Shown here: in pieces, positions 4,529-6,750 of the stretch
How positions within the stretch are numbered: the stretch's first letter is position 1
Layout: every line of letters starts with the position of its first letter
Assembly: GCA_021737275.1 (NCBI GenBank)
Contig: JAIPEE010000003.1
Location: 62,001 to 126,000, forward strand
DNA: 64,000 bases
Source: Desulfobacterales bacterium
GTDB taxonomy: Bacteria; Desulfobacterota; Desulfobacteria; Desulfobacterales; JAIPEE01
Reading direction: 5' to 3'
Made by a program: the position numbers and the translations under genes
The notes under the pieces: model-generated
Database searches by the model: none
Told to the model about the DNA's origin: nothing
The model's input: only the letters and a program-made list of their open reading frames with translations

Positions 4529-5554
4529 TCAGGGCATGATTGAATGAGATTTCAAATATTCCAAAAGGCTCTGAATTCCATTCCCATCAACATATTCAAG
4601 AACTTCCCTAAATCCGTCACCATAGACATCATCAGGATCTTCCTGCAAATTCTGTAAAAAAAATTCAGCCAATTCATCATAATGATTTGAGTAAACAAGA
4701 TACGCAGCATAATTTGCCATACCTTCATTTAGTTTGAGTTCCAACTCTTTGTCACAATTGAGATTCATCCAGACATGCATCATTTCATGGGCAAGAACGC
4801 CTTCGAAATATCGTTCGGGCATACCAGTTAACATATAAATCGTATTACTTTGGGTTATGATCATGTTACCGACTTTCCTGTATTGATATAAGCAAAACCC
4901 TTTTTCACTATTGCCCGGGTTTCCGGAAAGTTCCATCAGCGTATCAAGATCAACAAGATTAATCGGCACATCAGACATATCAATTATAATGCCATTTGCA
5001 GACAGAACAGCTTTTATATGTTGAACGATTGCTTCTATCTCTTCATGATTCATTTCGGCTTCATTGTAGCAGATATTGCACACTGCTCTGCCATCGTCAT
5101 ATACCTGTCCGCCGCCGGTTGAAAATTCACTTATTAGCCGCCGGCAATACTCGCAGGCCTTATGCGTTTTCTCATGTTCCGGGTGATATTGCAGCCCCCA
5201 GAAATCTTCGCTGTATTGACCGGCTATCGGTTCATTACAGACAGAACAGCGCGGTGCCATAATTTCCATAAAGCAGTTTTTATGATAGCTCTCATTATCT
5301 GACACAATATAGGCACCATCAAGAATACGACCGCAAACACCGCATCGCGGTGCAACTTCATTATAACAATCTTTATGATAAGCTTTGCCACCTGATGTTA
5401 CACACTGTCCTGATATTGCTTCCCCGCATACACTGCACTCAAGACCTGTGTTTCCGGCAAAAGCAAATCGGTTAGCAAGTATCAGTAAGATTATGAACAC
5501 CGGAATGCAGATTGTTTTTAACATCAGTATTGATATCTTCTTTTGCTTAATCAT
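4529..5554 (-). CDS. Secreted LIM-type zinc-finger / DA1-like metallopeptidase
   Basis: A signal peptide (residues about 1-33: Lys-rich start, hydrophobic core, AFA-G) is followed by tandem CxxC...HxxC zinc-binding units (C40/C43, H60/C63, C71/C74, H91/C94, C103/C106, H124/H127, C134/C137, C159/C162). The C-terminal half carries the zincin motif HEMMH at 256-260, with a likely third ligand E278 in LNEGMANY. This order, LIM-like fingers then a peptidase with HEMMHxW, is that of the DA1 family, known in plants as ubiquitin-activated peptidases with bacterial relatives. I infer a zinc peptidase acting in the periplasm or outside the cell; substrate unknown. It stands alone, with a palindromic element just upstream of its start. 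Confidence 0.8.
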   Translation of the reverse strand: MIKQKKISILMLKTICIPVFIILLILANRFAFAGNTGLECSVCGEAISGQCVTSGGKAYHKDCYNEVAPRCGVCGRILDGAYIVSDNESYHKNCFMEIMAPRCSVCNEPIAGQYSEDFWGLQYHPEHEKTHKACEYCRRLISEFSTGGGQVYDDGRAVCNICYNEAEMNHEEIEAIVQHIKAVLSANGIIIDMSDVPINLVDLDTLMELSGNPGNSEKGFCLYQYRKVGNMIITQSNTIYMLTGMPERYFEGVLAHEMMHVWMNLNCDKELELKLNEGMANYAAYLVYSNHYDELAEFFLQNLQEDPDDVYGDGFREVLEYVDGNGIQSLLEYLKSHSIMP

Positions 5555-5569
5555 TATGAATGTATTACC

Positions 5570-5719
5570 TTAAGGGCACCTCTAAAAATTGTTTTTCACT
5601 CTGATTTCTGCGTTATACTAAAACTTTAAATCCTCGAAATACTTCAGTATTCCTCCGGTTGAAATTTTTAGTATGCCTTGAACTCATAGCGAAATCCTAA
5701 TTTTTAGAGATACCCTTAA
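5570..5719. repeat. 150-bp imperfect palindrome, MITE/REP-like element
   Basis: The terminal arms TTAAGGGCACCTCTAAAAATT (5570-5590) and AATTTTTAGAGATACCCTTAA (5699-5719) are inverted repeats with two mismatches over 21 bp. The similarity continues inward: TATACTAAAA near 5615 pairs with TTTTTAGTAT near 5667, and the centre pairs CGAAATACTT with AGTATTCCTCCGG-type sequence. The whole unit can therefore fold into one long hairpin. There is no ORF inside. This is the form of a non-autonomous miniature transposon or extragenic palindrome. No second copy was seen in this window. It lies between the LIM peptidase start and the end of the thioredoxin-fold gene. Confidence 0.7.
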
Positions 5720-5766: not shown

Positions 5767-6750
5767 CTACAATCTGCCACCTATATCAGTAATAGTTTCT
5801 GCGGCGGCCTCTTTTAGTTCATCAGAAGAAAGCCTGGTAAGCAACCCTTTAATGTATTGAATTGTTTCCCGGTTTCCGCAAAGCCCAAAAAGATACAACA
5901 GATCACCTTGGGCCCGATCATTTATTTCCATAAAATTATCCAATAAAGAGTTGAGCCCGGCAAGAGCAAGCGCCATATCATATTCAATGATACTTTCCAT
6001 AGTAACCATAGCGCCCAGACGGGTTGACCACTTTTCATCAATTAAAAGCTTAAGAAATCCCGGAAAAACAGCTTTACGCTCTATCATCATTTGAGCAACA
6101 TCTACTGCCCTGCCCTCTTTTATCAGACTTCCTATTGAATCGGCACTCAGGGCAAACGGATCCCTGCCCACCATAATACCGACTATTTCGGAAGTCGAAA
6201 CATTGCCGGTCCATCTGAAATCGTTGTCCAGAAGAAGCGTCGGCACTGATTGAATGGCACTTTCCTGAGAATGTGTCTGAAACATCATGGCATCAATAAC
6301 AGACAGACGGGTATTTTCCGAAATAAAGGTCAAAGGGATAAGCTTTAACGCCATTTGAGGGCAGAATGGGCAATGGGATGAAACAAACAACCTCAATATA
6401 CAGGGTGTATCAACTTTCTCGAGTTGATATTGCTCATCATCAGACAAGCCTGCAGCCTTACCATCTGACAGGCGAATAGCTTCAAGAAAAGGCTCAAATT
6501 CGGTTCCGGTTGGTGCAGTATTGAATATCAAACGATCATGGATTTTAATGCCGGGTAATAATGCGGTTTCATCTTTTTTTCTATTTACCGTTATACCGGA
6601 TCCATCTTCAGTGATCTGATCACAAAAGGCTTGTATTTCATCAGGTGGCCCATCATCAGAAAAAACAAGATCAAGCGTAATATCGGTTTCAAGCTGAGCA
6701 GCAAGTTTTTTAAATAACTCAAGTTCGTGATTCGTCATAATTTTTAACAA
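5767..6750 (-). CDS. Thioredoxin-fold disulfide oxidoreductase with HEAT-like C-terminus
   Basis: The protein has two thioredoxin-like halves, as in the N-terminal domain of AhpF and archaeal protein disulfide oxidoreductases. The first half (about 1-100) lacks a redox pair. The second carries CPFC at 127-130, and a cis-Pro segment QSVPTLLLD follows. Residues from about 210 to the end form helical HEAT-like repeats (KWSTRLGAM, NRETIQYIKGLL, SDELKEAAAETI). No signal peptide, so cytoplasmic. I infer thiol-disulfide exchange, with the helical tail as a protein-binding surface. A start at Met5 (MTNHE) is also possible. No functional partner is obvious among the neighbours. Confidence 0.75.
   Translation of the reverse strand: MLKIMTNHELELFKKLAAQLETDITLDLVFSDDGPPDEIQAFCDQITEDGSGITVNRKKDETALLPGIKIHDRLIFNTAPTGTEFEPFLEAIRLSDGKAAGLSDDEQYQLEKVDTPCILRLFVSSHCPFCPQMALKLIPLTFISENTRLSVIDAMMFQTHSQESAIQSVPTLLLDNDFRWTGNVSTSEIVGIMVGRDPFALSADSIGSLIKEGRAVDVAQMMIERKAVFPGFLKLLIDEKWSTRLGAMVTMESIIEYDMALALAGLNSLLDNFMEINDRAQGDLLYLFGLCGNRETIQYIKGLLTRLSSDELKEAAAETITDIGGRL

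Follow-up and report, generated by a model that had tools for sequence, protein, structure and literature searches.

The window, a stretch of 64,000 nucleotides from a Desulfobacterales bacterium (contig JAIPEE010000003.1), carries a gene whose 341-residue product appears to be a zinc-dependent DA1-type peptidase preceded by a series of LIM-like zinc fingers (Table 1). Both this family assignment and export of the protein from the cytoplasm are supported by its sequence. The new element is that an exported, ubiquitin-free LIM-DA1 branch recurs in scattered bacteria, sometimes adjoining a cell-wall synthase gene. A bacterial LIM-DA1 protein is not in itself new, as a passage of Dong et al. (2017, PMC5322733), citing Burroughs, Iyer and Aravind (2011), likens DA1 and DAR4 to Roseiflexus proteins that contain four CxxC/H pairs. 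As far as that passage describes them, these proteins and the window protein are alike in being bacterial and in having CxxC/H pairs that resemble the ones found in DA1/DAR4. In the literature searched, we found no paper addressing the exported branch, the variable arrays of half-LIM modules in it or the linkage to a penicillin-binding protein (PBP), and Burroughs et al. (2011) may mention export.

Table 1. The LIM-DA1 gene, the parts of its predicted product and a neighboring repeat (window positions).
Feature	Position	Strand	Basis and remarks
LIM-DA1-type exported metallopeptidase gene (predicted), 341 aa	4529..5554	-	ORF; PF12315 63.7 bits, PF00412 43.8 bits
Predicted export signal, residues 1-33: KQKK, hydrophobic core, AFA cleavage site	5456..5554	-	Sequence and hydropathy; almost all close homologues have comparable signals
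Zinc module 1, C40xxC-x16-H60xxC	5366..5437	-	Sequence
Zinc module 2, C71xxC-x16-H91xxC	5273..5344	-	Sequence; 7-residue linker to module 1 (canonical LIM: 2)
Zinc module 3, C103xxC-x17-H124xxH, first half of DA1 LIM-like pair	5174..5248	-	Sequence, alignment A1
Zinc module 4, C134xxC-x21-C159xxC, second half of DA1 LIM-like pair	5069..5155	-	Sequence, alignment A1
Peptidase domain, residues 165-341	4532..5062	-	PF12315; in 15/15 rows of A1; low-confidence gluzincin-like model
HEMMH zinc-binding/catalytic motif, residues 256-260	4775..4789	-	Both His and the Glu invariant, 15/15 rows
Glu277 in NEGMANY, expected third zinc ligand (HEMMH-x15-N-E)	4724..4726	-	Invariant, 15/15 rows
DDVYGDGFR, conserved C-terminal DA1 motif	4607..4633	-	D307, Y310, G311, G313, R315 invariant in A1; C-terminal stretch of PF12315 matches
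MITE-like 150-bp repeat in upstream gap (context, not enzyme)	5570..5719	.	21-bp inverted ends, many genome copies

The Pfam scan of the window protein gave 63.7 bits for the DA1-like family PF12315 (curated cut-off 25) and 43.8 bits for LIM (PF00412, cut-off 22.9), so its LIM and DA1 motifs are not chance resemblances. Peptidase_M1 (PF01433) reached 23.4 bits, slightly below its cut-off of 27.7, as expected of a gluzincin, and no NCBIfam family exceeded its cut-off for this protein. An earlier note, made from the letters of the DNA, had described a signal peptide, zinc units, HEMMH and a later Glu in NEGMANY, all of which are present in the translated ORF. Its assignment of the protein to an exported LIM/DA1-like family is borne out by the two Pfam scores, the conserved motifs and the signal-like N-terminus.

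The active site follows the gluzincin pattern, with HEMMH and a downstream Glu (HEMMHx15NE), and the His pair, Glu257 and Glu277 are invariant in all 15 rows of an alignment (A1) of 15 proteins from two bacterial phyla. In the numbering of that alignment, which omits the start Met, the invariant positions are H255, E256, H259, E276, D307, Y310, G311, G313 and R315. Plant DA1 has HEMMHx15EE, and its second Glu occupies the same position as Glu277 (PMC5322733). Lack of conservation of the zinc ligands in homologues had been proposed in advance as a refutation of the family assignment; instead, the ligands, HExxH, the third-ligand Glu and YGxGxR are all kept across the two phyla, as seen in the invariant residues of A1 and the conserved zinc pairs.

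AlphaFold models, built from two sequences only (the window and L001 proteins), were weak (pLDDT 50–58), and the peptidase model used for fold comparison had a pLDDT of 50. The nearest folds to this low-confidence model were mostly zincins, including insulin-regulated aminopeptidase (Z 5.9, rmsd 4.9, 146 residues aligned) and selecase (Z 5.8, rmsd 4.7, 100 aligned), with LTA4 hydrolase, ACE2 and MATCAP also among the neighbors; Z-scores below 8 may reflect a common arrangement. Foldseek returned no match to the peptidase model at E ≤ 0.001. The modeled finger region resembles LIM tandems (best E 4.1e-6), and a sequence-profile search matched the window protein to paxillin LIM2/3 (E 5.5e-15); among the matches listed, that search gave LIM structures only and no solved DA1 peptidase structure. 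At Z of 5–6 against a weak model, these neighbors lend some support to a zincin-type fold but do not prove it; the refuting outcome named in the earlier note, no structural match to DA1-type zincins, did not appear. M1 aminopeptidases and minigluzincins such as selecase share HExxH and the downstream Glu with the window protein, together with the sub-threshold PF01433 score and the weak fold matches, but lack LIM modules.

A canonical LIM domain has two zinc sites separated by a 2-residue spacer. The CxxC/HxxC pairs of the window protein begin at residues 40, 60, 71, 91, 103, 124 (HPEH), 134 and 159, with gaps of 16, 7, 16, 8, 17, 6 and 21 residues between successive pairs, and form four zinc modules that span C40–C162. 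The units are regular, with 16 or 17 residues within each of modules 1–3, yet the spacers are 7 and 8 residues long, although PF00412 scores well above its cut-off. The layout is that of two single-zinc half-LIM modules followed by a LIM-like pair, with no canonical LIM. Eukaryotic LIM tandems (paxillin, PINCH, CRP) share the CxxC-x16/17-HxxC ligand pattern but retain the canonical spacer. The tandem fingers proposed earlier are thus real as zinc units but not as canonical LIM domains; they are half-LIM units with linkers of 7–8 residues, plus the LIM-like pair. The LIM-like Cys/His region, C103xxC-x17-HxxH-x6-CxxC-x21-CxxC, directly precedes the peptidase and is conserved in homologues.

Comparison of the gaps between ligand pairs showed that the zinc pairs are conserved across the family with near-fixed spacing, while the number of modules among relatives is zero, four, five or six. 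Some members (L023 and L026 among them) have an N-terminal canonical LIM (16, 2, 16), two single-zinc modules with 8-residue linkers and the LIM-like pair (17, 6–7, ~21). Five others (L027–L030 and L032) have one single-zinc module between LIM and pair, and in L022 a canonical LIM is followed directly by the pair. One module has lost its ligands in L034, and L031 has an export signal and a peptidase with zero fingers. This finger-less exported DA1-type peptidase (L031:7244-7906, G541) occurs in a genome that also carries a full LIM-DA1 protein (L027).

The N-terminus of the window protein reads MIKQKKISILMLK, followed by a strongly hydrophobic stretch and then FAFA/GN, the slash marking the predicted cleavage. 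KQKK precedes the hydrophobic core, whose Kyte-Doolittle 12-mer maximum is 3.48 at residue 15. The features of a Sec signal (positive n-region, hydrophobic core and A-x-A site) are therefore present, and cleavage is expected after A33 (AFA33). Export signals were found by sequence comparison in nearly all close homologues, and A-x-A-like sites lie at the matching place in many of them. L022, which lacks an export signal and is presumably cytosolic, is also the homologue nearest to the plant DA1 layout among those seen.

Like the plant DA1/DAR proteins (Arabidopsis DA1; PF12315), the window protein combines LIM-type fingers, a LIM-like CxxC region, an HEMMHx15(x)E site of the gluzincin type and a C-terminal part that PF12315 matches. 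It differs in being predicted to be exported, in lacking ubiquitin-interacting motifs (UIMs) and in having half-LIM single-zinc modules in place of the canonical LIM. No UIM family was found at E up to 1 in the Pfam scan of the protein, and the export signal is followed immediately by the first finger, which begins at residue 40. Searches of the genome for ubiquitin and E2 (PF00179, PF00240) gave no match, but control genomes likewise gave none, so absence is not proven. Given the lack of UIMs, the export signal and this negative search, it is reasonable to hold, as the earlier note did, that plant-style control by ubiquitin does not apply here.

Homologues were sought with the Pfam model and then with a profile of the 15-row alignment. 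The closest named relative is a protein from a Calditrichaeota MAG (40% identity over residues 36–335). The gene is rare and patchy in its distribution. Within the same order, 9 of the 389 genomes, the window's own included, have clear LIM-DA1 members when matches below ~70 bits are not counted. Members also occur in 8 of 39 genomes from the phylum of the Calditrichaeota MAG. A phylum-wide sample of 395 genomes yielded two positives, the window's genome and one with a divergent protein of 686 residues. The latter (L005:70-2130, G080) has a divergent C-terminal HELTH peptidase after a short CxxC-containing region and is a distant relative of the DA1 peptidases. Another very divergent protein (L061:5504-6781, G520; 425 aa) has an export signal, irregular zinc pairs, HEFSH and a long tree branch. 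In the tree, the window protein falls outside a six-member clade of order-mates, and its nearest row, though not strongly supported, is the Calditrichaeota protein; this position would fit either horizontal transfer or old paralogy. An origin from phage or plasmid was rejected, as searches of phages, plasmids and viral contigs gave no relatives.

A protein with PAS, histidine-kinase and receiver domains is encoded downstream of the window gene and a thioredoxin-like protein upstream (ORF 5767-6750, PF13192 slightly below cut-off, no evident export signal). The upstream gap holds the MITE-like element, whose 21-bp inverted ends are 90% complementary. Counting palindromic self-matches, 26 stretches of the genome match it; among them, one copy elsewhere on this contig is 99% identical, and several of nearly full length are 74–83% identical. 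With this repeat in the gap, no operon is evident at the locus. Scanning for promoters and terminators around the gene yielded no excess over shuffled sequences, and no Rfam family was found in the window. A link to two-component genes was considered, given the downstream kinase and receivers near L023 and L025, and was rejected because only common domains, not the same gene, recur.

The neighborhoods of homologues were also compared. In five genomes of another phylum (L028, L029, L030, L032 and L033), a class A PBP gene (PF00912 and PF00905) lies directly upstream of the LIM-DA1 gene on the same strand, with identities of 56–70% among the PBPs and 49–65% among the LIM-DA1 proteins; for L029, the PBP assignment comes from 70% identity to the L028 protein and not from a Pfam scan of the L029 protein itself. 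In three close relatives the PBP and its upstream gene are retained, with no LIM-DA1 detected. The window copy is not adjacent to a PBP, and other homologues have unrelated neighborhoods. As the PBP neighborhood is limited to one clade, this adjacency suggests, but does not prove, a cell-wall role for LIM-DA1 there. L029 and L030 also have thioredoxin-like ORFs in the vicinity of the PBP gene. Large Ig/PKD-repeat surface proteins (L024:3326-7627 and L026:8196-11804) are encoded beside LIM-DA1, on the strand opposite to it, in two genomes of the same family.

In our judgment the window protein is probably a Sec-exported LIM-DA1 gluzincin whose fingers would bind a protein of the envelope so that it undergoes limited cleavage. 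The sequence comparisons support export, family, active-site ligands and zinc-module conservation; the docking, the substrate and the role in the envelope are inferred. Sec would export the protein and signal peptidase would remove residues 1–33, after which the four zinc modules may fold as a rigid LIM-like rod. From motif and conservation, the catalytic zinc would be held by H256, H260 and E277, with E257 activating water. As the protein has no ubiquitin-binding motifs and is not expected in the cytosol, its modules would most likely dock a cell-envelope protein and present it for limited cleavage, much as the LIM region of Arabidopsis DA1 binds its substrate WUS (PMC11143343). The likely partner pathway in one clade would be peptidoglycan synthesis by the class A PBP. 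A bolder form of this proposal, to which we give a low probability, is that exported LIM-DA1 proteins are ubiquitin-independent bacterial regulatory proteases of the envelope, whose half-LIM arrays capture proteins of peptidoglycan synthesis, either class A PBPs or regulators of these, and so bring them to cleavage.

The earlier note had proposed that the fingers either bind another partner or autoinhibit the enzyme, and the evidence favors the first. The fingers could instead be an autoinhibitory or redox/zinc-sensing switch, in which bound zinc keeps the peptidase latent until, outside the cytoplasm, it is released by oxidation of the thiolates or by loss of zinc. Plant DA1 is indeed latent and mutation of its LIM-like Cys274 affects activity, but C274Y abolishes activity rather than releasing it (PMC5322733). 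Abundant thiols are unusual outside the cytoplasm unless the site is reducing, and thioredoxin-like ORFs lie upstream of the window gene and near the PBP gene in two relatives; the former, however, lacks an evident export signal, and the repeat element lies between it and the gene. Loss of one module's ligands in L034, the finger-less exported paralogue and the variable module number also tell against a switch, which we consider unlikely. Docking is preferred on the strength of the module number (none to six), the binding of WUS by the plant LIM region and the effect of C274Y.

Two further readings appear more doubtful still. The protein could be a general envelope quality-control or nutritional protease, its fingers merely stabilizing it outside the cytoplasm with no specific partner. 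Patchy distribution and varied neighborhoods would suit such an accessory enzyme, as would the finger-less paralogue, but regular, ligand-conserved module arrays across large distances suggest a binding surface, and the PBP linkage is conserved in one clade; we find this account improbable. We give similarly little credence to the possibility that the N-terminal segment is an uncleaved anchor holding the protein in the membrane, or that the modules remain cytosolic. The signal-less L022 offers a precedent, whereas in the window protein the positive N-terminus, hydrophobic core and AFA/G predict N-in topology and cleavage, and the A-x-A-like sites of many homologues agree with this.

The PBP linkage provides a testable substrate pathway, and the small bacterial LIM-DA1 proteins offer a setting in which the relationship between fingers and peptidase may be solved. 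The single-zinc arrays are also relevant to how the LIM domain, with its two zinc sites, came to be assembled. Since an exported branch lacks ubiquitin-binding motifs, the pairing of LIM and peptidase can, it seems, work free of ubiquitin. If the envelope-protease reading is true, it would show a role for this pairing before plants coupled it to ubiquitin.
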